Origin: an uncultured Roseiflexus sp.
Lineage (GTDB): Bacteria > Chloroflexota > Chloroflexia > Chloroflexales > Roseiflexaceae
Reading direction: 5' to 3'
Assembly: GCA_937935075.1 (NCBI GenBank)
Contig: CALGYB010000072.1
Location: 1 to 40,796, forward strand
Length of the DNA: 40,796 bases
Numbering within the stretch: the first letter of the stretch is position 1; every line of letters starts with the position of its first letter. Shown here one piece after another: positions 5,336 through 34,811 of the stretch. The notes below the pieces were generated by a model. It saw only the letters and a list, made by a program, of their open reading frames with translations. It was not told the DNA's origin and did no database searches. The translations under genes were made by a program, and so were the position numbers.

Positions 5336-5336
5336 G

Positions 5337-16645: not shown

Positions 16646-16665
16646 AGGCGTTGCGCTGCAACGCC
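16641..16665. repeat. CGTAGAGRCGTTGC palindrome, decayed copy
   Basis: CGTAGAGGCGTTGC, then GCT, then GCAACGCC. The inner arms GGCGTTGC/GCAACGCC (16647-16665) are perfect and the outer arm has decayed. Related to the perfect palindrome at 17044-17074. It holds the crotonase stop codon. Confidence 0.7.
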
Positions 16666-16759
16666 GCCGGTGCGGCGCATGGCATCGATTGCAAACAACG
16701 CACGGTCATATGGCTAAACGGCATCCATCCTGCTCTCACATCCATCATCGGGCAATGCT

Positions 16760-17355: not shown

Positions 17356-17395
17356 ACATCTTCGCGCCTTTGCGTTCGCCTGTCTGAGACACCTG

Positions 17396-18454: not shown

Positions 18455-18469
18455 GCCGCCCTCCTCTCT

Positions 18470-19513
18470 TCAAAGACCATACGCCTGCGCCAGGTCGGGG
18501 TCCTTCTTCGCAATCATGCGCGCCAGATCGACGATCACCTTCGCCTGCTTCCAGGTTGCGTCGTCCTGCATCTTGCCGTCGATCATGGCGACGCCAGATC
18601 CATCGGGCATGGCGTCGAGGATGCGTTTGGCGAACAGGACTTCATTGACATCGGGGCTGAAGACGCGCTTGGCAATCGGAATCTGGTTCGGCGCAAGCGA
18701 CCAGGCGCCGGTGCAGCCGAGGAGGAAGGCGTTGCGGAACTGAGCCTCGCAGGCGGCTTCATCCTTGATGTCGCCGAACGGCCCGTAGAAGGCGCGCAAT
18801 CCGTGGGCAACGGCGACATCGACCATGCGCGCAATTGTGTAGTGCCACAGGTCTTGCTGGTAGAAGGGACGATGCTCCTGCCCTTCCTGCGGATCGGCAA
18901 GGACGCCGTAGAACGGATGCCCGCCGCCGACGCGGGTGGTCTTCATGCCGCGTGACGCCGCAAGGTCCGCCGGTCCCAGACTGAAGCCGTGCATACGCGG
19001 GCTTGCGCTGGCAATCGCTTCCAGGTTCATCATCCCCTGCGCCGTCTCCAGCAGCGCGTGGATCAGGATCGGTTTCTGGATCTGGTGCTTCGCCTCCAGT
19101 AGCGCCAGGTACTGATCGACGAAGTGGATGTCCCATGGACCTTCAACCTTCGGGATCATCATGACGTCGAGTTTGTGGCCGACGGTGGCGACAATTTCGG
19201 CGATGTCGTCGAGGACCCAGGGGCTGTTGAGCGCATTGACCCGCACCCAGAGCGCCGTATCGCCAAAATCGGTCGTGCGGGCGACTTCGATGAACCCGGC
19301 GCGCGCTGCTTCTTTCGCATCCATCGGGATGGCATCTTCCAGGTTGCCGCACAACACATCCACCTGTTTCGCCACTTCGGGAATACGGGCGCGGATTTTC
19401 TCGACATGCGGCGGGAAGAAGTGGATCACGCGCTCAGGACGCACCGGCAATTCGCGGATCGGTTGCGGCGCGCCAACCGCCAGTGGTTTGTAGAAGTGAA
19501 TGGGAAGTTTCAT
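18470..19513 (-). CDS. mcl: Malyl-CoA / beta-methylmalyl-CoA / citramalyl-CoA lyase
   Basis: A 347-residue HpcH/CitE-type aldolase-fold lyase. In the 3-HP bicycle it cleaves (S)-malyl-CoA to acetyl-CoA and glyoxylate, condenses glyoxylate with propionyl-CoA to beta-methylmalyl-CoA, and cleaves (S)-citramalyl-CoA to acetyl-CoA and pyruvate. Visible sites: LEDA (58-61), Arg91 in WVRVN, IPKVEGP (120-126), the metal ligands Glu156 (LLETAQG) and Asp183 (SLGPADLA). Start ATG 19513 follows AAGGAGG, which overlaps the mct stop region, so translation is likely coupled. Three functions for one enzyme are known from the Chloroflexus protein; here they are inferred from similarity and cluster context. 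Confidence 0.94.
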
Positions 19514-19522
19514 ACTGCCTCC

Positions 19523-20749
19523 TTACGGGTCTTCAGGTCCGGCGACAATCCCTTCATCATGCAGTTTGCCGACTTCGCCCTCACTCAAGCCGAGCACCTC
19601 CAGCAGAATCTCGTCGGTGTGCTCGCCGAGTCGCGGCGCGCGCTGCGCCGGCAGCCGCAGCATTTGGCTGAAATCGAGCGGCGAAGCGGGCGCGAGATAC
19701 GTGCCGATGCCAGGTTGTTCGACCATGCTGAACATTGGATTGTCCGTCGAGCAGTCGGGGTCTTGCGCAATGGCTTCGCGCACCGTGCGGTATGGACCCC
19801 AGGTGACGCGGTGCTCCTCGAAGGCACGGCGCACCTCGGCAAACGTGCGCGCGTGGAACCAGGGTTCCAGCAGGGCGGCAATCTCTCTCCGCGCGCGAAA
19901 ACGGTCGCCCTCGTCGTTCATGTCGAGACCAAGGCGTTCCCCGAGCGCATTGAAAGCGTCGGTCAGCCCGGTTGCCTTGCCGAGCGCCTTCCATTGCAGG
20001 TCGGTCAATCCCACCACCATCACCCGTTTGCCGTCGAGAGTCTCGAAATCGCGCCCAAACGCGCCATACAGGTAGTTCCCCTGTTTGGGGCGATCGGCGT
20101 CGTTGATCATCACCTCGGCGATCATACCAAGATGACCAATCATCGCCAGCCCGACATCCTTCAGCGCCAGTTTGACCAACTGCCCTTCGCCGGTGCGCCG
20201 CCGGTGACGTTCGGCCGCCAACAGACCGAGCGCAATCATCTGACCGGTGACAATGTCCCACGCTGGCAGCACATGATTGACCACCTCCGGCGAGGTGAAG
20301 GGACCGGTCATAAACGGCAGCCCCAACTGCGGGTTAACCGTATAATCGACCTCCGAGCCGCCATCGCGCCGCCCCAGCAGGTTGACCATAATCAGATCGG
20401 CGCGATGCGCCTTCAGCGCCTCATAACTGAGCCAGCCGCGCGCCGGGAAATTCGTGATGAACAATCCTGCTTCGTCGCCGGGTGCGCAGATCAGGCGGGT
20501 CAACAACTCCTGCCCGCGCGGGTGACGAATATCGACGGCAATCGAGCGTTTCCCCTTATTGAGACCGGCCCAGAACAGACTGTATTTGCCGTCGAGGGTC
20601 ACAGGCCAGCGTTTATAATCAAGCCCGCCGCCAATCGGATCGAAACGGATGACATCCGCGCCCAACTGCGCCAGGGTCATCCCGCCGAGCGGCGCGGCAA
20701 CGAATGCTGAACCCTCGACGACTCGCATGCCACTGAGGATACCGTTCAT
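19523..20749 (-). CDS. mct: Mesaconyl-CoA C1:C4 CoA transferase (class III)
   Basis: A 408-residue class III (CaiB/BaiF) CoA transferase that moves CoA within mesaconyl-CoA from C1 to C4. The N-terminal GMRVVEGSAFVAAPLGGMTL and ADVIRFDPIGGGLDYKRWPV are family blocks. The candidate catalytic Asp165 is in LPAWDIVTG, at the position of the active-site Asp of formyl-CoA transferase. I start at ATG 20749; the in-frame extension to 20821 only translates heptamer repeats and part of a MITE-like element. First gene of the mct-mcl-mch operon. It is distinct from the two neighbouring SmtA/SmtB-type transferases, lacking their GDY motif. Confidence 0.9.
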   Translation of the reverse strand: MNGILSGMRVVEGSAFVAAPLGGMTLAQLGADVIRFDPIGGGLDYKRWPVTLDGKYSLFWAGLNKGKRSIAVDIRHPRGQELLTRLICAPGDEAGLFITNFPARGWLSYEALKAHRADLIMVNLLGRRDGGSEVDYTVNPQLGLPFMTGPFTSPEVVNHVLPAWDIVTGQMIALGLLAAERHRRRTGEGQLVKLALKDVGLAMIGHLGMIAEVMINDADRPKQGNYLYGAFGRDFETLDGKRVMVVGLTDLQWKALGKATGLTDAFNALGERLGLDMNDEGDRFRARREIAALLEPWFHARTFAEVRRAFEEHRVTWGPYRTVREAIAQDPDCSTDNPMFSMVEQPGIGTYLAPASPLDFSQMLRLPAQRAPRLGEHTDEILLEVLGLSEGEVGKLHDEGIVAGPEDP

Positions 20750-20777
20750 GGTGTGGTTCTCCAAGGTTAAGGGTTGC

Positions 20778-20805
20778 GAGAACTGAGAACTGAGAACTGA
20801 GAACT
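20778..20805. repeat. Heptamer tandem repeat (GAGAACT)x4
   Basis: Four exact copies of GAGAACT, followed by CATAAGTC and the MITE-like element. It lies 29-56 bases upstream of the mct start, in its likely leader or promoter. Copy number may vary by replication slippage. Confidence 0.9.
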
Positions 20806-20813
20806 CATAAGTC

Positions 20814-20932
20814 CACTGCACAAAGGCTTAACCACCAGGGACCCGAAGCGCACGAAGGGGAAGAACCATGAAGCGCATCGCCTGTGTGTCCCTTTGGGAC
20901 CTTCGTGGTTGTGGTTACAGCTTTTTGCAGTG
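20814..20932. mobile_element. MITE-like element, copy 3 (119 bp)
   Basis: Ends CACTGCACAAAGGC and GCTTTTTGCAGTG, inner arms AACCACCAGGGACCCGAAG and GGACCTTCGTGGTT, and flanks GTC / AAGTCA as in copies 1 and 2. It lies just upstream of mct. Confidence 0.75.
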
Positions 20933-20994
20933 AAGTCACTAATAGGAAGAGCAATCTCCCTCCGGCCAACCACGCTTGCACCGGTGAAGCGGTT

Positions 20995-21025
20995 GGCGTT
21001 GGCTTCGACAGGCTCAGCCAACGCC
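20995..21025. repeat. 11-nt-loop palindrome (TCGACAGGCTC), copy 3
   Basis: Perfect arms GGCGTTGGCT / AGCCAACGCC enclose TCGACAGGCTC, identical in loop to 11581-11615. Confidence 0.85.
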
Positions 21026-21075
21026 GATCACGAGATGATGGTCTCATATCCGTTGATCTTCCTACGAGGCGCGGC

Positions 21076-21093
21076 TGCGGGCTAAAGCCCGCA
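21076..21093. repeat. Short perfect palindrome TGCGGGCTAAAGCCCGCA
   Basis: Stem TGCGGGCT / AGCCCGCA with a two-base AA centre. It is of the intergenic type that is often dispersed in phototroph genomes. Only this copy is seen in the window. Confidence 0.6.
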
Positions 21094-21227
21094 CTACCAG
21101 CGGGAACGCCCCTCCCACGACTGGCCCCGCCTCGCCCGTCCCCTCACTCTCTCGCGCCTCACGCCTCTGTCCCGCGCCGCCAGGCGCCACTTTCAACCCG
21201 CAACCCCACTCTCCTCGCGCGTATGGG

Positions 21228-22445
21228 TCAGATCACCCGTTTGGCGCGCAATTCGCCGATCTGTTCGTCGCTCATCCCGAGCACCTCTTTGAGCACCTCA
21301 TCGGTATGCTCGCCGAGCCGGGGACCGGGACGCCTGATCCGTCCTGGCGTTTCCGACAGTTTGGGCACCACATTTGGCATAATGATCGTTTCGCCGAGAT
21401 CCTCCACATCGACGGCGACGAGATTGCGCCGCGCGTGCACCTGGCGATTGCCAAAGATATCGGCAATATCGTTGAGCGGCGCAGCCGGGGTGGCAGTTGC
21501 ATAACACCGCTCCAGCACTTCGGCGCGGGTCAGTGAACTGCACCAGTCGCGCACGATTTCATTCACATCGTTCGCATGCTCGAGACGTATTTTCTGCTCG
21601 CCATAAATGCTCGACGACGCCAGTTCGGGGCGGCCCATAGCCTTCGCCAGCCGCGCAAACAGTTTGTCGGTGGCGCAGGAAATAGCGACCCATTTGCCGT
21701 CTTTGGTCTGAAAATGACCATGGGGACAGGCAAAGTCGTTGTGGTGCGGTCCATGCCGCTCGCGCACTTTTTTGTACATGCCGTAGGCCGGTACCAGTTC
21801 ATCGCTACAGCGGAAGACCGATTCGTAGAGCGCCGCATCGATATACTGGCCACGCCCGGTTTGCTCACGGTAGCGCAGCGCCAGCAACACTCCGATGCAC
21901 CCGTACAACCCGGTCATATAATCGCCGAGCGTCGTCGAACCCGGCGTGACCGGCGTTCCCTTCGGCATACCGGCGAGATACGAGATACCGCCGACCGCGT
22001 GGGCAATGCGAGCAAAGCCGGGCCGATCCTTGTACGGACCCGTCTGCCCATAGCCGGTCACGCGCAACATAATCAGACCCGGATTGATCTGACTGAGCAC
22101 GTCCCATCCCAACCCCCACTTCTCCAGCGTGCCAGGACGAAAATTCTCGCACAGCACATCAGCCTTTGCGACCAGGTCCTTGAAAAGCTGCGCACCCTCT
22201 GGACGTTGCAGGTTAAGGGTTACCGAACGTTTGTTGCGCGACTCGCTGAGCCAGGTCAGCGTGTCGCCGCGCGTCGTCGGCGTTCCAAAACGGCGCAGGG
22301 CATCGCCGCCGACCGGATGCTCGATCTTCAACACATCCGCGCCAAATTCGCCGAGCAGCGTGGCGCAGAAAGGCGCCGCCACAACGGTTGCAGCATCAAT
22401 CACACGAATACCTGCCAGCGGCAGGGCGCTTTCGTTTCCGTCCAT
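21228..22445 (-). CDS. smtB: Succinyl-CoA:(S)-malate CoA-transferase, subunit B
   Basis: A 405-residue class III CoA transferase. With SmtA it transfers CoA from succinyl-CoA to (S)-malate, giving malyl-CoA for Mcl in the 3-HP bicycle. Key blocks: [20 protein letters not shown] (10-29), [17 protein letters not shown] (32-48), [14 protein letters not shown] (101-114), [15 protein letters not shown] (131-145) and the candidate catalytic Asp175 in TTLGDYMTG. It is a clear paralogue of the adjacent smtA product along its whole length. Start ATG 22445 follows GAGGTGAT; the smtA stop is 16 bases upstream, so the two form an operon. Which paralogue corresponds to A or B follows the order and N-terminal form known from Chloroflexus. 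Confidence 0.88.
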
Positions 22446-22461
22446 TGCAGATCACCTCGTG

Positions 22462-23907
22462 CTAGATAATCTTGCGACTGCGCAGGTTCTTGATCTCCTC
22501 TGCGGAGATGTTCAGCAGCTCGCGCAAGACTTCATACGTCGCATTGCCGAGCGGCGGACCCAGGTTCGTAATGCGGCCCGGAGTTTCAGAGAGGGTTGGA
22601 ATAACATTCGGCACGACCACTCCGCCAACGCCTTCCGCCTCGACGCACGCGAGGTTCCCGCGTGCTTGAAAATGCTCATCGTTGAAAATATCGGCAATAC
22701 TGTTCAACGGACCGATCGGCACTTCTTTGTCAAGGCAGCGCCGCATCACTTCATCGCGCGTCAGCGAACCAACCCACTCGATCGTAATCTGGTTGACCGT
22801 ATCACGTGCAGCCAACCGTTTGCGCTGATCGCCGTACAGTTCAGGAGACGCGAGTTCGGGACGTTCCATCGCCTCCGCCAGCCGCTCGAACATTTTGTCG
22901 GTCGTGCAGGCGATAGCGACCCACTTGTCGTCTTTGGTGCGGAAGTGACCGTGGGGCACCGCAATGAAGCTGCCTGAACCTTCACGTTCGCGGATCTTGC
23001 CGAATAGACCGTAGGCTGGCGCGATTTCGTCGAGCACCCGAAATACCGCTTCGTAGATCGCCACATCGATCACCTGTCCCTGCCCGGTTCGCTCTTTGTG
23101 TCGCAGCGCGATCAAGATACCGATTGCGCCAAACAGACTTGCGATATAGTCGCCAAGCGGCGCCGTTCCCGGCAGCACCGGCGTCTCGCCGGGGAACCCC
23201 GCCAGATAGGAAAGACCGCCAAACGCATGGGCAATGTGCGCAAAACCGGATCGACGGCGGTACGGACCGGTCTGACCATACCCCGACACGCGCAGCATAA
23301 CCAGTCCCGGATTGGCGGCGCGTAGCACAGGCCATCCCAATCCCCACTCCTCCATCGTACCGGGGCGAAAGTTTTCGATCAGGATATCCGATTTCGCCAC
23401 CAGTTTGAGGAACAGTTCGACCCCTTCCTTTTGGCGCAGATCGATCGTCACCGACTTGCGATTGCGCGCTTCGCTGAGCCAGGCGAGGGTTGCATCGTGG
23501 CGAACGGTAGGGGTGCCAAAACGCCGCATCGGATCACCGCCAATCGGATGCTCGACCTTCAACACCTCGGCGCCGAATTCACCCAGGATCGACGCCGCAT
23601 ACGGACCGGCAAGAAAGTTGCCAACGTCGATGACCCGAATGCCACTGAGCGGCATGCGATCGTGTTCAGGCGGTCGATCAGGTAATGGCATTGGTGCAAC
23701 ATATGCGCCACTGCTGCTGATCGCATGCGCCACAGGCTGTTCGGGTGATGATGCAGACGCTTCGCCGGTTGTGGCATCACCTTCGCTGAGCGCCTCGGAT
23801 GCCGTGCTCTCCGGCGCTTCTTCGGGAGTCGGCGCCGGAGCGTCAGCGCTCTCCACTGCACCTACCGCCTGACTCGCTGCTTTTGCCGAACGCGCCCCTT
23901 TTGTCAT
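22462..23907 (-). CDS. smtA: Succinyl-CoA:(S)-malate CoA-transferase, subunit A, with N-terminal low-complexity extension
   Basis: A 481-residue class III CoA transferase, partner of SmtB. The first ~85 residues are Ala/Ser/Glu/Pro-rich with no domain ([20 protein letters not shown] region), then [19 protein letters not shown] opens the transferase domain. Candidate catalytic Asp253 lies in [24 protein letters not shown] and [16 protein letters not shown] match SmtB. The start is most likely the second ATG of ATGATG (23907), 7 bases after GGAGG; a further upstream ATG (23922) would put the ribosome site inside the gene. First gene of smtA-smtB, divergent from meh. The acidic extension may be a linker or regulatory tail. 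Confidence 0.88.
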
Positions 23908-24239
23908 CATCCTTCCTCCCATACACCCTCAAGAATGCGAGATACAAACAGACTCTCCACCGGCGACGTTTGCCTCTGTCCACGATGGGTTCGTTTTCAC
24001 ATGGGCAAAATGTTGCCAGGAAGATCTGTGCCGAATGTGAATGTGAGGTTGCGCATGCAAGATACGGAGAATAGTGTATCATATGTGTAAAATATTGGTA
24101 ACTGCCGGTCTCAAATCGTAAACCCGCGCGGCGGAAACGTCGAACGCGGCGCATCGAGATGTGTCAGAGGGGCAGGTGGCCGATGGAAAGGCGACACGTC
24201 CTGACCCCAACCCCTTGACCGTAACCAAGGAGGAGAGGG
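23908..24239. promoter_or_regulatory. Divergent smtA/meh control region
   Basis: About 330 bases separate two 3-HP bicycle genes reading away from each other. An A/T-rich pocket near 24055-24105 (GATACGGAGAATAGTGTATC, then ATATGTGTAAAATATTGG) is the most likely promoter area for one or both. I could not find a -35/-10 pair of normal spacing, which may point to activator dependence or another sigma factor. AAGGAGGAGAGGG at 24227-24239 is the meh ribosome site. Confidence 0.5.
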
Positions 24240-25082
24240 ATGACCTCAGACGATCTGACTGCCTGGATTGGTCGGACGGAGCGCGTCGAGGATGACATCA
24301 GCCCCGCGCAGGCGGCAGCGGCGGCGGCGATGCTCGAACCTCCCCCGCCATTACCGACGAAAGGCGCGGCGCTTCCACCACTGTGGCACTGGTTTTACTT
24401 CCTGCCGCGTGCGCCACAGTCGCAACTCGGCATCGACGGTCACCCGCAGCGGGGCGGCTTCATTCCTCCCATCCCCTACCCGCGTCGCATGTTCGCCGGT
24501 GCACGCATCCGCTTCCATCAACCGCTCATCATCGGTCAACCTGCCCGGCGTGAGGGGGTTATTCGTAACGTCGCCCAAAAATCGGGGCGCAGCGGTCCGC
24601 TCGCATTCGTGACCGTCGGCTACAGCATTTACCAGGACGATACCCTCTGCATCGAAGAGGAACAGGACATCGTCTACCGTCAACCAGGCGCGCCTGTGCC
24701 GGCGCCTGTGCCGGCAGATCTGCCGCCGCCGCCGTCGGATGCGTGGGTGCGCACCGTGACTCCTGATACTCGCCTGCTCTTTCGCTTCTCCGCCCTCACC
24801 TTCAATGCCCACCGCATCCACTACGACCGCCCTTACGCAAAGCACGAAGAAGGGTATCCTGGATTAGTCGTCCACGGTCCGCTGACTGCCGTGCTGCTGA
24901 TGGAATTGGCGCGCCACAACGTCAATCGCCCAATTGTCGGGTTCAGTTTTCGCAGCCAGGCGCCACTGTTCGACCTGGCGCCATTCCGGTTGATCGCCGT
25001 ACCCGCGGGGGATCGTGTCGAACTCGAGGCGCAGGGACCCGATGGCGCCACCGCCCTTAGCGCCGTGGCGGAACTGGGATAG
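24240..25082 (+). CDS. meh: Mesaconyl-C4-CoA hydratase
   Basis: A 280-residue MaoC/HTD2-like hydratase that adds water to mesaconyl-C4-CoA to give (S)-citramalyl-CoA. The N-terminal half (ACT-like LTAWIGRTE, then LWHWFYFLP near 45-53) and the C-terminal hot-dog motif FNAHRIHYDRPYA, then EGYPGLVVHGPL, are those of HTD2-type 3-hydroxyacyl dehydratases. The assignment as Meh rests on similarity plus its position beside smtA and the mct-mcl-mch operon, as known in Chloroflexus. Strong ribosome site AAGGAGGAG. Divergent from smtA, convergent with the molybdoenzyme operon. Confidence 0.9.
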   Translation: MTSDDLTAWIGRTERVEDDISPAQAAAAAAMLEPPPPLPTKGAALPPLWHWFYFLPRAPQSQLGIDGHPQRGGFIPPIPYPRRMFAGARIRFHQPLIIGQPARREGVIRNVAQKSGRSGPLAFVTVGYSIYQDDTLCIEEEQDIVYRQPGAPVPAPVPADLPPPPSDAWVRTVTPDTRLLFRFSALTFNAHRIHYDRPYAKHEEGYPGLVVHGPLTAVLLMELARHNVNRPIVGFSFRSQAPLFDLAPFRLIAVPAGDRVELEAQGPDGATALSAVAELG

Positions 25083-25090
25083 GTTGAACG

Positions 25091-25126
25091 CTGAACGTTC
25101 CCACGTTCAGGCGGCATGCCTGTTTT
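25091..25126 (+). terminator. Possible terminator after meh
   Basis: A perfect stem CTGAACGT-TCCC-ACGTTCAG (25091-25110) starts 9 bases after the meh stop, followed at some distance by TGTTTTATCG. The T-run is not directly next to the stem, so strength is uncertain. Confidence 0.45.
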
Positions 25127-25136
25127 ATCGAATGTG

Positions 25137-25172
25137 AACCTCGAAGAAACCCGGTGTTCCATGAAACCATCG
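25137..25172. repeat. Dispersed repeat (GAAACCsGGyGTTCCATGAAACC), copy 1
   Basis: CTCGAAGAAACCCGGTGTTC and the following CATGAAACCATCG match 34600-34633 with few changes. It lies between meh and the molybdoenzyme operon, directly before the GGCGAAGG palindrome at 25188. Not coding on either strand as far as I can see. Confidence 0.8.
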
Positions 25173-25187
25173 ATGCGAAAAAGTCAG

Positions 25188-25222
25188 TTGGGCAGGCGAA
25201 GGTACTGCCTTCACCCGCCCAA
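25188..25222. repeat. GGCGAAGGCA palindrome, copy 3
   Basis: TTGGGCAGGCGAAGGTA faces TGCCTTCACCCGCCCAA with three wobble-type mismatches. It shares the following CGCACGTCA with the copy at 13926. Confidence 0.75.
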
Positions 25223-25323
25223 CCGCACGTCACATGGCAATGTTTCAGATAGCAAGAGCGGGTCCACCGTGAGGTCACAACAGTGCTGTACCCCAACCGC
25301 ACCTCATGTCACCCCAGGCGCCC

Positions 25324-28300
25324 TCATCCCACCTTCGCAAGTTTGACCCTTGAGTCGTAGAAAACGGCGCTCCCGCCAACCAGATCGCTGAGCGTCACAT
25401 TACCGAGCACCGGATCGACCCGCATCGCGGCGTTGGCATGCACCCCGGCGGCGCGGCGCGGGTCTGCCGGAATGGTGACGCCATCAATCACGATATCGCT
25501 GGCGCCACTGGCGAAATGGCCCCAACCGAGCGGGAACGAGATTACGCCCGGGCGAATGCCTTCAATCACCTTGACCTTGCCAATCATTGGCTTGCGCGTG
25601 CCATTCTGCAGATCCCAGACGCCATCGGGGTTGCTGGCTGAGCTGATCCGCACACGGTCCCCGTTGCGTAAACCGAGCCGTTCGGCATCGACGCGGTTGA
25701 TCAAGATGGCGTTTTCCGGCATGAGCGCCAGCAGCCAGTAGTCGGCAATACCGCGCGCTTTGGCCATCATTGCCTCTTTGTAGGTGATCAGGTGCAGGTC
25801 ATAACCCTCGTCCACAACCGGTGTGCCGTCGGCAGCCAATCCAGCCGGGATGTAGGCAGGATACCCGATCAGATGTTCACCGGTCATCGAGTTGATCGTG
25901 CTTGCTGTCTTCTCCTGGTAGACGTTGATCTGTTTGGCGTAGGGATTGCCGGCGAGATTGCCCTTCCAGCCCTTTTCGTAAGCCTGATAGCGTCCGCCGC
26001 GATTAAGCACGTAGACGGTTTGGCGCCAGAGTTGCTCGTCATTGCCCACTGCTGCGCGCCACCTGGCTTCGTCGAACACGTGTGGCGGCAGGAAGCGGCG
26101 CGCGTGTCGGAAGATCGCCAGTTCGTTGTCATCAGCCGGCGGCACGCCGTCGCTGCCGTCTTCCTTCTCGCCAAAAGCGACATTCGCAACCAGTTTGAGG
26201 TAAAGATGTTCGGGTCGCGTGAAGGGGACGCCTTCGCCAAAGCCATCAGGACCGAAGCCGGGCAGGTTGAGCCGCTCGGCGATAGCGAGCACGAGCGCCT
26301 CGAAGCTGAGCGGAATCTCTTCGCCGAAGACCTTGACGGTCGGCCAGTCGGGCAGGCTGATCGCGGGTTGGCGAATGTTTTCCACCTTCCATGGCACATT
26401 AGGGTGCGATCCGTGGAACTCCCAGCGTTCGAGGAAGCTCAGGTCGGGAAAGATATAGTCGGCGTAGGCGCTGGTTTCACCGACCATAATGTCGCTCGTA
26501 ATAATGAGCGGGATCTTCTTGGGATTGGCCAGTATCTCGATCACCGTCTGCGCTGCCGGCAGCGCATAGTTGATCGCCGACATGTAGAACATCGCAACCT
26601 TAATCTGATACGGGTACGCATCGCCCATCGAGGGCACGTCTTCCTGATAGACATCGGTCGCAAGCGGGAACCATGGCCGCCGCGCCGGATAGCCGTCGAA
26701 CAGCGTCGATTTTTCGTAGGCGGTGTTGGTGCGCAGCAGGTCGATGCCAAATGGCGCGTTGGCGCCATTGTTCATCTTGTCAATCAGGAATGGGCCTTTT
26801 GCCTTGCCGCCCAGCCGGTCGTAGGTGGTAGGCTTGATCAGACCGCCACGATGGTCGAAATTACCGACGAGCGCATTCAACGTGTAAAAGGCGAAATTGG
26901 TGTAGAAGCCGTTGGTATGCTGTGACGCGCCGCGGTGGATGTCGGCGACGGCGCGGGCGCCGTGACTGGTGAATTCGCGCGCAACGACGATAATATCCTC
27001 GTCTTTCACATCGGCGATCGCCGCCCACTCTTCGATCGTATGCATGCTGGCTGCTTCATAGATAATCTGCAAGCCGCTCTTGACCCGAATGCCGTTGATC
27101 TCGGCGTCAACCAGCAGATCACCCATCACCGGCGCGGCTTCGGGGTTGTTCGGATCGATGGGAGTCGGGATGCCATTGACCAGCGCAACGAAGGGATCGA
27201 AGGCAAAGATCGCGCCATCGGCGGTGGCGTACTGTTTGCTCTTTTTCCCTTCAGCATTAATCGTTTCAACGACCGTTGTCAGACCGATTTCGCTGGCGCG
27301 GAGGAACTTGCCCGGTTTGCCATCTTTGATCTTGACCAACCAGACCGCGTTCGTCCAGCTCGGCTCGCCGATAGCGGCGGCGGCGGCTTTGTTGGCGGCG
27401 GCGAGAAAGGCGGCATTGTAGCGTCGTTGCTCGATAATCCAGCGGATCATCCCCATCACAAAAGCAGCGTCGGTTCCCGGCTTGATCGGGATCCACTTCC
27501 ACGCCTTGCTGGCCAGTTTGCTCAGACGCGGGTCGAGCACAACGTACCGCATCCGGTTGTTGATCACCCCCTGCGTAATACGCGGTGATTGCGGCGTGGG
27601 ACCATAGTTGGCCTCGAAATGATTGGTTCCGGCAAAGAGCACGAACTCGGCGTTACCCAGATCGGCCTGCCAGTAGAACTTCTGGCCGCCGGTGAATTTG
27701 CCGGTGGACGGATCGAATTGTTCGCTCATCGCCTTGCCGGTGAAGTAGAGCGAACCCTGGCAGATGGTGGTATGGCCGTTGGCATTGACCGAGCCGAAAC
27801 CGCTCTTGACGAACCGCTGCACGAGATCGCCGCGTCCGTTCTTCAAGCGACCCCACACGAAGGCAAATTGGTTGTTCTTTGGTCCCAAATCGGGATGATC
27901 CGGATCGATCAACACGTCGAGATGCTCGGCAAAATCACGCTTGAACTGCTCGACAAGCGCGGGCTTCTCTTCGGGCTTAGCCGCGAGAATGTCGTTCACT
28001 GCGGCAGCCATCGCTTTGGCCAGCTTCGCATCTTTGAGCGCGTACAGCGCGCGCAACCCTTCCACCGGACCTTCACCAAACAGGTCGCCGCCTTCGACAA
28101 TCTCCGTGATCGCCTGATCGAAATCGATGGTCATCCATTGGCCAGCCCCGCGTGGCGTGCCCGGCTTGCGCTTGAGAACGCGCATCAACCGGTACGGATC
28201 GTAGGCCGTCTGGATACCGGCCTGCCCCTTGGGGCAGAGCGCGCCATCGACTGTTCCGCTGGCGCTGATCGGGGTACTGTAGGGCAACGGCGGCTCCATT

Positions 28301-28578
28301 GTCCAGGGGCTGTAGGGATTGCCTTCAAGCTTGGCAGCCACGCCGTCGATCAACTTGACCTTGAGGCCACAGCCGGTATTGCACTGCAAGCAGACGGTCT
28401 GAATCGAGTTGGCGGGATCGACCAGCGGTATGTCGATCGGTTCGCTGCGCGCGAGGCTGGCGAGCGGACCACAGCCGGCCAATGCTGCGCTGCCGCCGAG
28501 CAGAGCCGAGACCTTGAGGAAATTACGCCGGTTGATGCCGGCGCCGGTTGGCGTTGGGGCGTCGTACTGTCGTTTCAT
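25324..28578 (-). CDS. ttrA: Molybdopterin oxidoreductase catalytic subunit, tetrathionate reductase (TtrA)-like
   Basis: A 1084-residue DMSO-reductase-family catalytic subunit exported folded: Tat motif NRRNFLK (16-22), hydrophobic stretch and a lipobox-like LAGC (33-36). Residues Cys63, Cys66, Cys70 and Cys115 bind the [4Fe-4S] cluster (C-x2-C-x3-C...C). The likely Mo ligand is Cys273 in GHTTICQG. Its length exceeds PsrA and PhsA (~750) and ArrA (~850) and is close to TtrA (~1020). The segment DPDHPDLGPKNNQF (225-238), before the Mo-ligand region, also fits TtrA-like proteins as I recall them. It would reduce tetrathionate or another sulfur or metalloid oxyanion at the outer face of the membrane. 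Last gene of an FeS-NrfD-Mo operon (order B-C-A, as in ttrBCA). Arsenate or polysulfide reduction cannot be excluded. Confidence 0.8.
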   Translation of the reverse strand: MKRQYDAPTPTGAGINRRNFLKVSALLGGSAALAGCGPLASLARSEPIDIPLVDPANSIQTVCLQCNTGCGLKVKLIDGVAAKLEGNPYSPWTMEPPLPYSTPISASGTVDGALCPKGQAGIQTAYDPYRLMRVLKRKPGTPRGAGQWMTIDFDQAITEIVEGGDLFGEGPVEGLRALYALKDAKLAKAMAAAVNDILAAKPEEKPALVEQFKRDFAEHLDVLIDPDHPDLGPKNNQFAFVWGRLKNGRGDLVQRFVKSGFGSVNANGHTTICQGSLYFTGKAMSEQFDPSTGKFTGGQKFYWQADLGNAEFVLFAGTNHFEANYGPTPQSPRITQGVINNRMRYVVLDPRLSKLASKAWKWIPIKPGTDAAFVMGMIRWIIEQRRYNAAFLAAANKAAAAAIGEPSWTNAVWLVKIKDGKPGKFLRASEIGLTTVVETINAEGKKSKQYATADGAIFAFDPFVALVNGIPTPIDPNNPEAAPVMGDLLVDAEINGIRVKSGLQIIYEAASMHTIEEWAAIADVKDEDIIVVAREFTSHGARAVADIHRGASQHTNGFYTNFAFYTLNALVGNFDHRGGLIKPTTYDRLGGKAKGPFLIDKMNNGANAPFGIDLLRTNTAYEKSTLFDGYPARRPWFPLATDVYQEDVPSMGDAYPYQIKVAMFYMSAINYALPAAQTVIEILANPKKIPLIITSDIMVGETSAYADYIFPDLSFLERWEFHGSHPNVPWKVENIRQPAISLPDWPTVKVFGEEIPLSFEALVLAIAERLNLPGFGPDGFGEGVPFTRPEHLYLKLVANVAFGEKEDGSDGVPPADDNELAIFRHARRFLPPHVFDEARWRAAVGNDEQLWRQTVYVLNRGGRYQAYEKGWKGNLAGNPYAKQINVYQEKTASTINSMTGEHLIGYPAYIPAGLAADGTPVVDEGYDLHLITYKEAMMAKARGIADYWLLALMPENAILINRVDAERLGLRNGDRVRISSASNPDGVWDLQNGTRKPMIGKVKVIEGIRPGVISFPLGWGHFASGASDIVIDGVTIPADPRRAAGVHANAAMRVDPVLGNVTLSDLVGGSAVFYDSRVKLAKVG

Positions 28579-28621
28579 ATCAACACTCCTGTCGTGGACA
28601 CAGGTGTTCCTTCGCTATCGG

Positions 28622-29764
28622 TTAATCGGACGTGCCGGCAGATTCGGCCGGACGGGCGAAGAGCGGCAAGCGATCGGCGCCTGCGACGAATCCAATGGTG
28701 ACGGCGCCGACAATCCCAGCGGTCACTGCCCATTCCATCAAGCTAGGGCTATACGTAAAGCTCAGGTGCGGACCCTGGAAGGCGTCGCCCAGACCTTGCA
28801 GTTCGGGCAAGCTGAGCGCCGGGAAGATGATGTTAGCGCGGGCAACGGCTAACCCCAGCAGGACGCAGACGCCCATCAGACCGGTGACAAAGCTGTTGCG
28901 CCCTGGCGACATCGTGAGCACGATCAGCGGCAGGAGCATACCGAGACCGATTTGCAACAACCAGAAGGCCCAACCGTAGGGTCCGAACAGCACCAAATTG
29001 ATCGCCTCTGCGCCATGACTGCTATTCTGGTAGAGCGCCTGCGAAACGTCAGTCCAGAGATAGTACCCTTTGACCAGCAGCAACACCACTAGCGCCAATC
29101 CCAGCACCTGCAACTGCTGTGCGCGGCGCGGGTCGCGCGACGGGCCAAACCAGCCGATGGCGATCAACATCAGGGCGACGCCGGAGGTCAGGTTGAAGAT
29201 GGGAAATTGAGCCGGCAAGTTGCTGACATGCCAGCTGACCCGGTTCTGGTTGACGCCGAGCAGGGCGCCGATACCGCCGCTGAGGAAGATCGCCAGCACC
29301 AGACCAACCACCATCACCGGTTTCAGCCAGCGTGATGGCTGAGGACGGAAGCTGAGCCAGAGGCTCACGATCACGATGAGGAGAAAGATGGTATACCCCC
29401 AGACCAGTTGCGCCATCACCGCCCCAAAATTGGGCTGGACGTAGACCTTCCAGATCCGGGTCATATGACCAAGATCGAGACCGATGGCGGCGAGACCAGC
29501 CGGCAGGGTGACCAATGAACCCCACAGCGCCATACGGCCGCTGCCGCGGAAGAGCGGCAACTCGAACAAGAGATCGAGAGTCGCCAGCATAAAAGCGCCG
29601 GTAGCAATGCCGGCAAAGAACATATAGAGCGCCACCCACAGCCCCCATACCACATACGAGCCGTAGTTGGCGTTCATATGCCCGTAGACAAACCGGTCGT
29701 ACACTCCCCACAGGCCAATGAGCAGGCCAAGGGCGCCAGCTACATAGAGGAGTCGGTTCAGCAT
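28622..29764 (-). CDS. ttrC: NrfD/PsrC-type quinone-reactive membrane subunit (TtrC-like)
   Basis: A 380-residue integral membrane protein of the NrfD family with about nine hydrophobic segments, starting with LLYVAGALGLLIGLWGVYDR. It anchors the complex and exchanges electrons with the menaquinone pool. No heme ligand pattern is apparent, as expected. The start is ATG 29764, where GAGGAG lies 7 bases upstream. The in-frame GTG at 29779, which overlaps the ttrB stop, would put the ribosome site inside the gene. The gap to ttrB is 11 bases and to ttrA 43 bases. It transfers electrons between quinol and the four clusters of the FeS subunit. Confidence 0.88.
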   Translation of the reverse strand: MLNRLLYVAGALGLLIGLWGVYDRFVYGHMNANYGSYVVWGLWVALYMFFAGIATGAFMLATLDLLFELPLFRGSGRMALWGSLVTLPAGLAAIGLDLGHMTRIWKVYVQPNFGAVMAQLVWGYTIFLLIVIVSLWLSFRPQPSRWLKPVMVVGLVLAIFLSGGIGALLGVNQNRVSWHVSNLPAQFPIFNLTSGVALMLIAIGWFGPSRDPRRAQQLQVLGLALVVLLLVKGYYLWTDVSQALYQNSSHGAEAINLVLFGPYGWAFWLLQIGLGMLLPLIVLTMSPGRNSFVTGLMGVCVLLGLAVARANIIFPALSLPELQGLGDAFQGPHLSFTYSPSLMEWAVTAGIVGAVTIGFVAGADRLPLFARPAESAGTSD

Positions 29765-29775
29765 AGGTCTGCTCC

Positions 29776-30732
29776 TCACAGCAAATAATAGACACGCGGC
29801 TCAGTGCCGAGTTCTTCCTTCAACCGGATCACGTTCGGCTTCACAATCAATTCGCTCACAAGGCTTTCGGGATCGTTAGCGTCGCCAAAGAAGGTCGCGC
29901 GCCCGATGCACGTCGTCACACAGGCCGGCAATTCGCCATTCAGCACACGGTGCATGCAGAAGTTGCATTTGCGCACATTCCCAACCGGCGAATCGTGCGG
30001 ATCGCGGCGAGCGTGCGGCTTACCGTACTCAAAGGTACTCACTTGCTCGTAACTTGCCGCCTGATCGGCGCCAAGCATCGCGCCGGAGCTGGTTGTATTG
30101 GCGGTGTAGGTGTAGCCAAAGTCGAAGGTGCGGGCGCCGTAGGGGCAAGCGGTGATACAAGCGCGACAGCCAATACACTGCTCATAATCAACCGCGACAA
30201 CCCCGTGCTCGTTGGTGTACGTGGCCGAAACCGGGCAGACGCTCGTGCAAGGCGGGTTGTCACACTGCATACAGGGTCGGGGAACAAACCGGCGACTTAC
30301 ATGTGGATACCGTCCGGTCTCTTCTTCCAGCACCGGACGATAGACAACCCCGGGAGGCAGTTTGTTTTCGGCGACGCAGGCGATTGTGCAGCCGTGGCAG
30401 CCGATGCAGGCGCGCAGGTCAATCACCATGACCCAGCGTCGTTCGGCGACCGGCTTGCTCAGCGCGCGCAGCAGATCGGCGCGCATCCGTTCGAGATGAT
30501 CAACCGGCGTCCCACTGATGTTAGCAGCGCGCAAACGAGCGATTTCGGCTTCGTAAGCAGCGAGCGCCTCTTCGGGGGTCAAAACATTGATCGCTCCCTT
30601 GGGCGCCTCCGTCGCTGGATGCGGCGCCGCTTTTACCGCAGCGGCTGCAAGCGCGCCAGCGCCAGCCATCAGTGCGCCAAGCACGCCGCGCCGGCTGACC
30701 GGGGTGAGTGGAATGGTAGGTTGCCGAGACAT
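29776..30732 (-). CDS. ttrB: Tat-exported four-cluster ferredoxin subunit (TtrB/PsrB-like)
   Basis: A 318-residue electron-transfer subunit with 16 cysteines in four [4Fe-4S] motifs: C109/112/115/119, C154/157/162/166, C186/189/192/196 and C256/259/271/275. A Tat signal is present (SRRGVLGAL at 13-21, then an alanine-rich hydrophobic stretch). A ~60-residue helical insert (about 45-100) precedes the first cluster and makes the protein longer than typical TtrB or PsrB (~240). It links the NrfD subunit with the Mo subunit. Ribosome site GAGGAG before ATG 30732. First gene of the operon; a 21-bp palindrome lies 99-119 bases upstream of the start. Confidence 0.9.
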
Positions 30733-31200
30733 AGGCTAAGCTCCTCGGAATCAGCAGAGTACTGCCAGCCTTACTGTACGGCGTTTATTGTGCTAGCGGT
30801 AGCAGGAAAAATGCGGCGCCGCCGGTGCGGTTGTCAGAGTTTTCCTGACAAAGGGAGGTAATACTAACCTGCGGTCAGTCAAACAAGATGTTCGCGCGTT
30901 CGTTGTGCAAGGCGTAACGTGCAACGTGCAGCGGCAGACGTGTCGTGGACGCATGACTGCGCCCTGGCATCAGCAGCCCCAGGGGGGCTTGCACGTGCGG
31001 TGCGTGCGGTGCGCGCCGTCGAACTGCGTGCGGTGAGCATCGTCGAATCGCGTCCTCAGCGAGGGTTTTCGCCCGCAGCGTCCCAGCAGTATGGCACGAA
31101 TGACCGCGCATGAGTATTACTCGTCCGATTTCAGGGTGAGACATGGTTCGCCCATATCACAGAGCGCGCACGGGTTTGCAGGGGCGGGCAACCACATACG
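30733..31200. other. Control region between response regulator gene and reductase operon
   Basis: About 470 bases with no credible gene. It includes the palindrome at 30831-30851 and, further on, GTGCGGTGC-type direct repeats near 30995-31035. The promoter of the reductase operon (minus strand) must lie between roughly 30733 and 30900; I find no good sigma-70 box pair. Confidence 0.6.
30831..30851. promoter_or_regulatory. Candidate operator TTGTCAG-N7-CTGACAA
   Basis: Perfect 7-base inverted arms separated by AGTTTTC, 99-119 bases upstream of ttrB. Size and symmetry suit a dimeric two-component response regulator, and the NarL-type regulator gene next door is the obvious candidate. No other copy is seen in the window. 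Confidence 0.5.
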
Positions 31201-31848
31201 CTACGCCGGGGTCAGCAGGTTGTGATCGAGCGCAAACTGCACAAGCGCAGCGCGCGAACGCAACCCGAGTTTCTCCATACCGCGGGTGCGGTACGTCTCG
31301 ACCGTTTTGGGGCTAAGGTTCAGCTGAGCCGCAATCTCGGCGGCGGTGTATCCACGCGCCACCAGCGCCAGCACCTCTCGTTCGCGCTCGCTAAGACTTT
31401 CCCACGGGCTAACTGGCGGCGTTTGCGGCAAGAGATCTTCGAGCAAGCGACGGGTGAGGGCGGGATGGATGTACATTTCACCGCGTAACACAGCGCGGAT
31501 CGCTGCAATCAACTCGGCGTCGGCGGCCCGCTTCAGAACATAGCCGTGCGCGCCGGCAGCCAGCGCCTGCCGCACATAGCCCTCATCGTCGTGCATCGTG
31601 AGCACCAGAATACGCGCGTGCGGCGCTGCGGCGCGCAATGATGGGATCGCAGCCAGCCCGCTGCCATTGGTCAGGCTGAGGTCGAGCAAGATCAAGTCAG
31701 GTTGCAGCGCAGCGACTTGCATCGCCGCCGTGCGTGAATCTTCGGCCTCGCCAACCACGTGCAGATCAGATTGCGCATCGAGCAACAAGCGTAATCCGGC
31801 ACGCAACACGGCGTGATCATCGACCAACAGAATACGGTTCACAGGCAT
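31201..31848 (-). CDS. NarL/FixJ-type response regulator (TtrR-like)
   Basis: A 215-residue regulator. The receiver domain (1-120) has the acidic pair Asp10/Asp11, phosphoacceptor Asp56 (LLDLSL), Thr84 in VLTMHD and Lys105 in GYVLKR. The LuxR/GerE helix-turn-helix (about 148-208) reads LSEREREVLALVARGYTAAE and then SPKTVETYR. It overlaps the end of the kinase gene by 32 bases, so the two are made together. Position beside the reductase operon suggests it controls that operon, as TtrR does in enterobacteria. Confidence 0.92.
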   Translation of the reverse strand: MPVNRILLVDDHAVLRAGLRLLLDAQSDLHVVGEAEDSRTAAMQVAALQPDLILLDLSLTNGSGLAAIPSLRAAAPHARILVLTMHDDEGYVRQALAAGAHGYVLKRAADAELIAAIRAVLRGEMYIHPALTRRLLEDLLPQTPPVSPWESLSEREREVLALVARGYTAAEIAAQLNLSPKTVETYRTRGMEKLGLRSRAALVQFALDHNLLTPA

Positions 31849-33301
31849 AGGATTCCTCGGCTGATGCTAGCAAGGGAAATTCGACATACAGCGTCGTGCC
31901 GTTGCCCGGGGCCGACTCGATGATCAGATGACCATTCAACAACGCTGCCCGCTCGCGGATCCCGTTCAGGCCGAGATCACCATCGCCACGCAGAGCAGCC
32001 GGATCGAACCCACAGCCATTATCTTCAATAATCGCGCGCAACCGGCCATCACGCCGCTCGATCACAATACTGGCAGTGGTCGCGTGAGCATGACGGATGA
32101 CATTGGTCAGCGCCTCTTGCACGATCCGGTAGAGTGCGGTTTCGAGCGCCGGATCGAGCCGTTCGCCGTTTAAGTCGGGCATTGCGAGATCGATCGTCAA
32201 TCCGCTCCGAGCGCGGCAATCGGCAACGTAGCGTTGAATAGCGGCAGCCAGCCCTAAATCGTCGAGGACGCTGGGACGCAATTGGCGGGCGAGTGCATGC
32301 AAGTCATGCAACACCTGCCCGACTATCCCGCGCAGATCGTCAACCTGCCGTCTCAGATCAGGCGAGCGGTGGCGGTCGGCGAGCGAACGCAATCCGATCA
32401 GCAGCGAAGTGAGCGCCTGGCTCGTGCTATCGTGGAGTTCGCGGGCAATCCGCTTCCGCTCCTCTTCTTGGGCAGCAATGATCCGGGTCACATACTGCGC
32501 CCGCATCTGCTCGCGCTCGGCCCGTTCGCGTTCGGCTTGAGCCAGCGCATCACTCATCGCATTAAGGGCATCAGTCAGCGCGCCTATCTCATCATCGGCC
32601 CAACGCTGTGCACGCCGGCTAAAATCGCCGCCGGTCACCGCTTTGGTCAGCTCAACCAACTGCAAGATCGGGCGGGTGAGGATCCACGTCAGCAACGCGG
32701 CAGCAGTGATCCCAATCGCCGCAGCCATAATAGTCGTAATCAACAACTGACTGGTCACCGCAGCGACTGTCTGCTCGCGGGCGGCTAATGATAAGCCGAC
32801 GCGGGCGACACCGGCGCGACCATCGAAGATCGGCACCGCAGTATCCCAAACATCGCCTTCATCGGTGGCTAACAACACACTGCGGTGATGTTCATTCGAT
32901 GTCACGATATTGGCATCGTACAATCCCGCCGGGAAGCCGGCGCCGAATGTATGAGCGATGATCGCACCTTCAGAGTCGATCACGAACGCATAGCGCAGAT
33001 CAGGATTATTGGCTTGTGTGTCGCGTAACAGGCGGAACAGGCCGTAGTAATCGCGCATCAGTGTGAGATCGGTCGCGCGTGCTGCCACATCACGCGCCAC
33101 TGCGACCGAGTGTTCGCGGGCTTGAGTCGTGAGGGTTTGGTCGAGTAACAGCCGCACTTCAATGGTCGCTGCTACTCCCATTAACACCACCAACCCCAGC
33201 ACGATCCCAAGGATCTTGGCCCGGATGTTGACGGCGCCAATCACCTGCCAGATTGCAGTCGCCCATCGTTTCAGCCGATGTGATACACGCATGGTATTCA
33301 T
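31817..33301 (-). CDS. NarX-type sensor histidine kinase with periplasmic sensor and HAMP domain
   Basis: A 494-residue membrane kinase. TM1 is about 28-46, a periplasmic Cache-like domain spans 50-184 (RDYYGLFRLLRDTQANNPDLRY region), TM2 about 185-207, HAMP about 208-262. The HisKA_3 dimerisation domain holds phosphoacceptor His290 in ELHDSTSQAL. The HATPase domain ends the protein (DNGCGFD, LGLNGIRERA, GNGTTLYVEFPL). Its ATG overlaps the stop of the binding-protein gene by 4 bases and its end overlaps the regulator gene. TtrS of enterobacteria carries a PhnD-like sensor fused to the kinase; here that module is a separate upstream gene, and the kinase has its own sensor domain. Confidence 0.92.
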   Translation of the reverse strand: MNTMRVSHRLKRWATAIWQVIGAVNIRAKILGIVLGLVVLMGVAATIEVRLLLDQTLTTQAREHSVAVARDVAARATDLTLMRDYYGLFRLLRDTQANNPDLRYAFVIDSEGAIIAHTFGAGFPAGLYDANIVTSNEHHRSVLLATDEGDVWDTAVPIFDGRAGVARVGLSLAAREQTVAAVTSQLLITTIMAAAIGITAAALLTWILTRPILQLVELTKAVTGGDFSRRAQRWADDEIGALTDALNAMSDALAQAERERAEREQMRAQYVTRIIAAQEEERKRIARELHDSTSQALTSLLIGLRSLADRHRSPDLRRQVDDLRGIVGQVLHDLHALARQLRPSVLDDLGLAAAIQRYVADCRARSGLTIDLAMPDLNGERLDPALETALYRIVQEALTNVIRHAHATTASIVIERRDGRLRAIIEDNGCGFDPAALRGDGDLGLNGIRERAALLNGHLIIESAPGNGTTLYVEFPLLASAEESYACEPYSVGR

Positions 33302-34221
33302 GGCGACAACTGACCTATCCGAGACCGTAAGAGCCGCGCGCTCGCGTAAGCAGCGTCATCAATCATGACAAACCGGTCAATACCAAGCGCCGCCAGCGCC
33401 TGTTGCGCTAGCGGCGATGGATCATCGGCCATGCCAAGCAGGATATTCTGCAACTCGGCGCGTAACTGCGGGCGCACACCCGGCCCTACCACTACCGGCG
33501 GAACGCCGAACGGCGGTGAGGTGTGGATGGCCTTCACTTTAGCAGCCAATGTCGGATCGCGCGCCAGCGCAAAATCGAACACAAGGCTATCGACCGCTGC
33601 GCCGTCAGCCAGCCCGTTCGCCACTGCTTCGATTGCTTTGTCGTGGCTGTAGGTAAAGAAGATGTCGTAAAAAAAGGTTTCCGGCTCTTCCCCCAACTCG
33701 CGCACCAGCGCCGTGGGGTAGACCCGCCCGCTAAACGAGGTCGGGTCGGTGAAGGCAAAGACCTTGCCGCGCAGATCGGCCATCGTTTGGGCAGGGCTGT
33801 TTGCCGGTACAATCAACAGTGAATGATAGGTTGTCGCCCCATTGACTTGCGGCGCAACCAGCAAGCTCATCCCGTAGCGGTCGCGGCCATCGATATAGGC
33901 GCTGGTGCAGACAAAGGCCACATCGACTTCGTTGCGCCCGATCAGCTCGTTGGTTTCGGTATAGGTGCGGCGCTGCACTAATACCACCTGCCGTCCTAGC
34001 CGCGCACCGAGATAATCGAGCAGCGGCTGATAGCTCTGCACGGCGCCCTGTGGCGAAATCACCGATGCCACCGATACTCGCAGCGGCGGCGACGTGACCG
34101 GCGTTGGCATTGGTAACGGCTGCAAGTCGTTGAGCCGGATGCTCGTCGTGGGCGCCGGTGATGCGCCGCACGCAGCGAGCATAAAGATGGTGAAAACGAT
34201 AAGGCTGAGACGCTGTGCCAT
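33298..34221 (-). CDS. PhnD-type periplasmic binding lipoprotein, putative sensor component
   Basis: A 307-residue lipoprotein: hydrophobic signal (5-16) with lipobox MLAAC (Cys18), then a type 2 periplasmic-binding domain of the PhnD/AioX family (LRVSVASVISPQGAVQSYQP, later RNEVDVAFVCTSAYIDGR and VFAFTDPTSFSGRVYPTAL). No ABC permease or ATPase is nearby. Instead it overlaps a kinase gene by 4 bases. Proteins of this family sense arsenite (AioX) in three-component systems and form the sensor half of TtrS. I therefore infer a sensor, not a transport function. The ligand is unknown; an oxyanion is likely. Confidence 0.85.
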   Translation of the reverse strand: MAQRLSLIVFTIFMLAACGASPAPTTSIRLNDLQPLPMPTPVTSPPLRVSVASVISPQGAVQSYQPLLDYLGARLGRQVVLVQRRTYTETNELIGRNEVDVAFVCTSAYIDGRDRYGMSLLVAPQVNGATTYHSLLIVPANSPAQTMADLRGKVFAFTDPTSFSGRVYPTALVRELGEEPETFFYDIFFTYSHDKAIEAVANGLADGAAVDSLVFDFALARDPTLAAKVKAIHTSPPFGVPPVVVGPGVRPQLRAELQNILLGMADDPSPLAQQALAALGIDRFVMIDDAAYASARLLRSRIGQLSP

Positions 34222-34279
34222 AGATATCGTTATTGCCTTTGCTCATTCTCAAGATAACCACACGAGACATGCCAGAGGC

Positions 34280-34308
34280 ATTATAGATTTTGTCCGTCAT
34301 CTACCGGT
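34280..34308 (-). promoter_or_regulatory. Candidate activator-dependent promoter of the sensor operon
   Basis: On the minus strand a perfect TATAAT (34280-34285) stands 17 bases from ACCGGT (34303-34308), which is a poor -35 box but part of a direct repeat (second ACCGGT at 34314-34319, one helical turn away). A perfect -10 with a repeat in place of the -35 suggests control by an activator bound there. Transcription would start near 34273. Confidence 0.6.
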
Positions 34309-34381
34309 ACGTGACCGGTGCGAACCTTAATCTATGTGACGGAAAGATCATATCACGCAGTGCGTCAGGATACCAGAAAGA

Positions 34382-34447
34382 GTTCGTAACCAGTAGTGAA
34401 AGGGTTCGTAACCGGTAATGAAAAAGTTCGTAACCGGCAGTGAAGGG
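34382..34447. repeat. Three exact-period 22-bp direct repeats (iteron-like)
   Basis: Units at 34382-34403, 34404-34425 and 34426-34447, consensus GTTCGTAACCGGTAGTGAAA with variable last bases. Each carries ACC(A/G)G(T/C), 22 bases apart, i.e. on the same face of the helix. A related inverted copy (GTTCGCACCGGTCACG on the minus strand) lies at the promoter near 34308-34325. Confidence 0.85.
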
Positions 34448-34596
34448 TAAGAGGACGGAGAAGCCATTCTACCGGTCAACCAAACGTCAGACCATCCTGG
34501 CGCAGGATCGCCTGGAGTGGCGGGCGGTCCAGCCCAGACCGGTCTTCGCCGTTGAAGCAGCGCTGGAAGTGGCGCGCCCCATTCTCGTCGGGCGTG

Positions 34597-34633
34597 GACC
34601 TTGAAGAAACCGGGCGTTCCATGAAACCATCGT
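34597..34633. repeat. Dispersed repeat (GAAACCsGGyGTTCCATGAAACC), copy 2
   Basis: Matches 25137-25172 over about 35 bases with few differences. It lies ~180 bases before the transposase remnant. Confidence 0.8.
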
Positions 34634-34811
34634 TATCGTTATAGCATCAATATGATAACGAGACGTGTCATCCCAAGCGCAGCAAGGTATCTGAAGCATG
34701 TGCCGTGGAAGAATCCTGGCTGCAATCAGGGTGACCGACGATGGTCGGCATTAGCATGCGCGTTCACGGCGATGTCTCGTTGTCGTATCAACCTCTACCT
34801 CTCAACAATAC

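Follow-up and report, generated by a model that had tools for sequence, protein, structure and literature searches.

The window analyzed here, a 40,796-nucleotide stretch of DNA from an uncultured Roseiflexus sp., contains a respiratory molybdoenzyme operon adjoined by genes for a binding lipoprotein, a sensor kinase and a response regulator, and raises the question of which oxyanion such an operon senses and reduces in a phototroph. The original prediction took the regulatory trio for a split TtrS-like system of intermediate layout, with tetrathionate as the first-choice substrate. The six open reading frames were confirmed at the positions given there, all on the minus strand:

33298 to 34221, minus strand: X, an oxyanion-binding lipoprotein of the ArrX/AioX type with lipobox LAAC (PF12974, PDB match, pocket, AF2 model).
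31817 to 33301, minus strand: S, a membrane sensor kinase (Pfam and hydrophobic segments).
31201 to 31848, minus strand: R, a response regulator with receiver and GerE domains (LuxR/FixJ-type) and no AAA+ domain (Pfam).
29776 to 30732, minus strand: B, a 4Fe-4S subunit for electron transfer whose leader (SRRG) is TAT-like (Pfam).
28622 to 29779, minus strand: C, an NrfD-type membrane quinol subunit (PF03916, 5.9e-25).
25324 to 28578, minus strand: A, a Mo-bisPGD catalytic subunit with a TAT signal, a Cys ligand in HTTICQGSLYF and a place in the TtrA superclade (Pfam, tree, motif).

The genes are tightly packed, with overlaps of 4 nt between X and S, 32 nt between S and R, and 4 nt between B and C, a spacing of 43 nt between C and A, and a gap of 468 bp between R and B. 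In Pfam searches, X was assigned to Phosphonate-bd (PF12974, 1.3e-65), S to sCache_3_2, HAMP, HisKA_3 and HATPase_c in that order, R to Response_reg and GerE without AAA+, B to a 4Fe-4S dicluster family, C to NrfD, and A (1084 aa, with a twin-arginine signal) to Molybdopterin, Molydop_binding and Molybdop_Fe4S4. The Cache domain of S, enclosed by hydrophobic segments 20-55 and 178-201, was absent from the original description. As described there, lipoprotein, kinase and regulator are encoded by separate genes next to a phototroph's respiratory molybdoenzyme of the oxyanion type (Pfam, gene positions), and no ABC permease or ATPase accompanies the binding protein among the window ORFs scanned. 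The gene order is kept in five Chloroflexus genomes, and the arrangement is thus not a product of chance.

Both PF12974 and TIGR01098, which X also matched, cover phosphonate transporters, and X could accordingly be read as a phosphonate or phosphate uptake protein with a kinase gene incidentally beside it. We regard this as highly improbable, since no permease or ATPase is located nearby, the overlap with S is conserved, and transporter proteins lack the pocket Cys described below. Apart from X, the genome encodes a single strong PF12974 protein, on contig C158; its gene is followed by one for an ABC ATPase, and it does not have the AioX-type pocket. A transporter role for X was rejected on the pocket residues and the presence of this separate protein.

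The best PDB relative of X by sequence was ArrX of Chrysiogenes arsenatis (E 3e-60), followed by AioX (3e-32) and then the phosphite-binding PtxB, and X scored 207 bits for ArrX, 115 bits for AioX and 19 bits for the TtrS model (NF040750, cut-off 750). The structure comparison suggested with the original prediction gave the same ranking. For an AF2 model of X (pLDDT 86.9), ArrX was the top match in both Foldseek and VIA-align, with Z 31.4 and 40% identity to the arsenate-bound form 6xl2 and Z 31-32 for ArrX overall, as compared with 29.5-30.9 for AioX and 28.3 or below for PtxB. Seven residues of the AioX pocket (Tyr88, Cys106, Tyr131, Ser161, Ser163, His192, and Asp210, AioX numbering) served as a test, and all seven are present in X as Y-C-Y-S-S-H-D, identical to ArrX and AioX. 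Among the fetched loci, every X encoded beside a TtrA-type enzyme keeps the pocket, the fifth residue being either Ser or Thr. The pattern is missing from ABC-transporter binding proteins and from E. coli TtrS, which reads LNIAGAP at these positions. X is a member of the AioX/ArrX sensor subfamily and shares the layout of the AioX/ArxX/ArrX group, in which kinase, regulator and molybdoenzyme genes are adjacent without a permease; in the tree of X proteins, ArrX sits on a long branch and its joining point is ambiguous. With an AioX-subfamily pocket and so weak a TtrS match, X does not qualify as a split-off TtrS domain, and the idea of an intermediate layout was likewise abandoned. ArrX binds arsenate (1 uM) and phosphate (150 uM); the remaining oxyanions tried, tetrathionate, thiosulfate, selenate, and sulfate among them, were not bound (PMC5908839). 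By analogy, X would bind arsenate, and X-S-R is very probably an ArrX-type three-component system.

The regulator and the promoter upstream of B point in the same direction, and two further features were located there:

30832 to 30850, minus strand: operator TGTCAGGAAAACTCTGACA, the predicted R site upstream of B (genome motif search, nine-locus alignment).
30733 to 30870, minus strand: conserved promoter region with the palindrome, then the half-site TTTTCCTGCTA, then TACAGT, which is -10-like (nine-locus alignment).

R is of the FixJ/CitB type with only receiver and GerE domains, and scored 60 bits against a TtrR model that requires 290. The original prediction was right that Aio and Arx systems use other regulator types but overlooked ArrXSR, in which ArrR is FixJ/CitB-like (PMC5908839). 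ArrR of C. arsenatis lacks AAA+, unlike AioR and ArxR, and a putative ArrR site, tcaggtttttccctga, is found upstream of arrA in that organism (PMC5908839). The 19-bp palindrome TGTCAGG-N5-CCTGACA upstream of the enzyme genes in the window (full text before B: TTGTCAGGAAAACTCTGACAA) resembles this site in its tcagg...cctga core. An alignment of nine loci, drawn from Chloroflexus and other families of Chloroflexota, shows the TTTTCCTGCTA half-site after the palindrome and, in most of the loci, the TACAGT box. With at most one mismatch, each of five Chloroflexus genomes has a single occurrence of the operator, always upstream of the BCA operon, and the window genome holds one exact copy plus one site with a single mismatch on contig C89; a same-genus genome that lacks the operon had none. 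When upstream regions were scanned, scores of at least 12/14 upstream of B were confined to X-linked loci, with none in loci without X, and the low score of L034, where the operator is visible in the alignment, is due to an open-frame boundary. The upstream regions of most X-linked loci from Desulfobacterota and Myxococcota had no operator match. As the operator is nearly unique in each genome and the scan hits are restricted to X-linked loci, R, with its predicted operator, probably has essentially one target. That X-S-R controls BCA through the palindrome is, in our judgment, likely.

The kinase core differs among the relatives. It is HisKA_3 in Chloroflexota and Desulfocapsa and HisKA in Nitrospirota and Myxococcota, and HisKA kinases occur in some of the X-linked Desulfobacterota and Myxococcota loci without an operator match. 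In L053, L054, and L066, an AioX-type X lies beside the same enzyme clade with a HisKA kinase replacing HisKA_3. The sensing part, X plus Cache, has thus been kept among the relatives while the output part was exchanged. In L066, from Anaeromyxobacter sp. PSR-1, one stretch holds a single AioX-type X and two B-A(-C) sets, which belong to different subclades.

For the catalytic subunit, TtrA was the best NCBIfam model, at 487 bits (NF011567) and below its cut-off of 1750, followed by PhsA with 190 bits and ArrA with 119 bits (NF041714, cut-off 1600). In a quick tree of 102 proteins with long reference branches and hence tentative deep joins, A was placed inside a 90-member TtrA superclade (SH-aLRT 100), outside the clade of TtrA from enterobacteria, Proteus, Pseudomonas, and Aeromonas, for which the references were taken from plasmid records, and away from ArrA/ArxA and Psr/Phs. 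This phylogeny, which the original prediction had proposed as a check, bore out its placing of the Mo subunit among oxyanion reductases, in the TtrA superclade, but not a grouping with authentic TtrA, ArrA/ArxA or Psr/Phs. The Mo ligand of A is Cys273, in a motif that reads HTT[VI]CQGSLYF in A and most of its relatives, as compared with CGLAYRAG in authentic TtrA and CAEAEKMG in ArrA (HSAICAEAEKMG). A second group of X-linked enzymes has CE[LQ]SHHIA, resembling an enzyme that a plasmid of Citrobacter arsenatis encodes within an ars operon. On that conjugative plasmid (L175, 6791-9817), a TtrA-superclade B-C-A operon is located within an ars locus, and related copies, about 32% identical to the window A, are found on plasmids of Citrobacter, Salmonella, Enterobacter, and E. 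coli. The structure that AlphaFold predicted for A had a mean pLDDT of 52.7 and was left out of the analysis.

A is accordingly neither an ArrA nor, by score, clade and ligand motif, a TtrA in the strict sense. Neither the window genome nor the Chloroflexus genomes gave an ArrA hit exceeding the curated cut-off, and no bona fide TtrA was found via G438 (a group of 46 genomes). The superclade holds tetrathionate, selenate, and alternative arsenate reductases (PMC7331816, PMC10100899), and the motif of A is unlike those of both ArrA and TtrA, so that the substrate of A cannot be named from sequence. Tetrathionate as first choice was given up. A split system of the TtrS kind, serving tetrathionate or some other oxyanion of sulfur, has in its favor that TtrA is the best model for A, but the shortfall of A against that model, its place outside the authentic TtrA clade, the absence of the TtrS pocket pattern, the weak TtrS and TtrR matches, and the failure of ArrX and AioX to bind tetrathionate or thiosulfate make it improbable.

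Links to arsenic were observed around the relatives of A. Besides the window, 26 loci in Chloroflexota, Desulfobacterota, Myxococcota, and Nitrospirota have an AioX-type X on the same stretch as a relative of A. In nine of the 21 genomes with a full acr3, this gene is located within about 10 kb of A (0.17 expected; P 3e-14, assuming uniform placement), an association of the wider enzyme clade that does not occur in the subclade nearest to the window A. In L057, acr3 is located between X-S-R and B-A, and Geobacter sp. OR-1, which has a separate ArrA too, carries an ars cluster beside B-A. In the window the operon has no ars gene next to it, and acr3 lies at another place in the genome; beside the Chloroflexus operons there were only weak ArsR/ArsB-like hits, and the Chloroflexus genomes gave no acr3 hit over the cut-off. 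In Melioribacter roseus, a Ttr-type locus lies behind 'ArrTSR' and ars genes and its ttrA transcript rises on arsenate, but only a Psr/Phs-type gene was significantly induced under this condition (PMC5492636). As this locus was published in 2017 (PMC5492636), the layout itself is not new. A combined literature search returned no paper linking tetrathionate reductase, arsenate, PhnD, and histidine kinase, and the genome paper of C. aurantiacus did not discuss the operon under the terms searched.

Taken together, the genes most likely encode, at somewhat better than even confidence, a three-component system of the ArrXSR type and, under its control, an arsenate reductase other than Arr. Anchored outside the membrane, X would bind arsenate and dock on the Cache domain of S, which would phosphorylate R; R would then bind TGTCAGG-N5-CCTGACA and the half-site near the -35 region of the BCA promoter. 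BCA would take electrons from menaquinol via C and B, and arsenate would be reduced at the Mo site of A, both substrate and direction of the reaction being putative. We hold arsenate to be ligand and substrate alike with a confidence just above even.

The same sensor layout could instead serve another metalloid oxyanion, with BCA acting as an AnrA-like antimonate or SrdA-like selenate reductase, which we consider unlikely. Acr3 pumps also export antimonite, in keeping with such a role; antimonate is octahedral, unlike arsenate and phosphate, the known ligands of this type of pocket, which speaks against it. Geobacter relatives fall in the same large enzyme clade as A, and OR-1 has its separate ArrA. 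The dissimilatory antimonate reductase AnrA has been named in Geobacter sp. SVR (cited in PMC13284237), and SrdA of Bacillus selenatarsenatis, compared by description only, belongs to the same superclade (PMC7331816), but selenate is not bound by ArrX (PMC5908839). BCA might also work backwards, oxidizing arsenite and passing the electrons to the photosynthetic chain, as Arx does in purple bacteria; the hosts are phototrophic, and enzymes of this type are able to operate in both directions, as ArxA and ArrA illustrate (PMC7331816). X and R are, however, closest to the arsenate-type ArrX and ArrR rather than to AioX/ArxX with their AtoC-type regulators, and C. aurantiacus reportedly uses AioA for arsenite (PMC7331816), so that we give this reading little credence. 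Arsenate reduction under ArrX-type control remains the preferred reading.

The distribution of the operon was reflected in the following features of the window:

about 25100 to 34811, no strand: inserted segment, absent from four same-genus genomes in which the flanks abut (genome comparison).
25134 to 25172, plus strand: left-hand member of a pair of 39-nt direct repeats that enclose the cassette (repeat search).
34594 to 34632, plus strand: right-hand member of this pair, at 90% identity (repeat search).

The left and right neighbor genes of the operon are adjacent in four same-genus genomes, and because of this empty site the 9.5-kb cassette was gained recently, from a donor resembling Chloroflexus. 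A shares 89-92% identity with its Chloroflexus counterparts and had no match in the five same-genus genomes searched; for the proteins encoded in the flanks, identity is 92-96% with same-genus relatives and 72-87% with Chloroflexus. Bin contamination as the source of the operon was rejected, given same-genus-like flanks on the same contig and a clean empty site in four relatives. No other copy of the 39-nt repeat was found in the window genome or nine relatives. At 34376-34447, in the stretch that separates X from the cassette's right end, a 22-bp unit (GTTCGTAACCNG...) is present three times in tandem; among ten genomes this was found only in the window genome.

Elsewhere in the window, a type II restriction endonuclease and methyltransferase (4550-6914, plus strand, 47.5% GC) are encoded on an insertion between fumarase and ArsA-like genes, a pair missing in the relatives read. 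The ArsA-like ATPase with an HSP20-like tail (6918-8021, plus strand) is found in the same place across the genus and is probably unconnected to the operon. A CoA-transferase, a MaoC/mesaconyl-CoA hydratase, and an HpcH/HpaI lyase at 15827-25082 resemble a 3-hydroxypropionate cycle cluster.

The host, a photosynthetic bacterium of hot-spring type, may thus breathe arsenate without the marker gene used in surveys. In a 2026 study of a hot-spring mat rich in Roseiflexus and Chloroflexus, arsenate respiration was denied because no arrA or arrB was found (PMC13171826). Both genera that host the cassette dominate such mats, and if BCA reduces arsenate, arrA surveys undercount arsenate respiration. 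More tentatively, and at somewhat less than even confidence, the HTT[VI]CQGSLYF branch may be a second, widespread bacterial class of arsenic-oxyanion reductases under ArrX-type control that arrA-based surveys miss, and that in filamentous anoxygenic phototrophs would move as a compact cassette conferring arsenate respiration in the dark. Being compact, and with what may be only one target, the pair of sensor and operator lends itself to testing ligand specificity.

Among known systems, AioXSR and ArxXSR share the sensor subfamily and gene order but have sigma-54 regulators of the AtoC/NtrC type and serve arsenite oxidases. Enterobacterial TtrRS-TtrBCA has the same B-C-A order, TtrA superclade and PhnD-like sensor fold; its sensor is fused to the kinase, unlike the separate X and S genes of the window, and its pocket, Mo-ligand motif and clade are different. 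PAE1265 of Pyrobaculum aerophilum, a TtrA-clade, arsenate-induced candidate for a non-Arr arsenate reductase according to PMC5492636 and PMC9751042, is archaeal and is likened to A by description. In M. roseus, a PhnD-like protein, kinase and regulator ('ArrTSR') are encoded directly upstream of a Ttr-clade molybdoenzyme (PMC5492636); that locus, likened here by its published description, adjoins arsRPCB and belongs to a non-phototroph. ArrXSR of C. arsenatis controls a canonical ArrA, unlike the TtrA-superclade BCA with its different Mo-ligand motif in the window, but shares with it the X-S-R order, the closest relative of X, the same seven pocket residues, a FixJ/LuxR-type regulator without AAA+, and a closely similar palindrome before the enzyme genes (PMC5908839).
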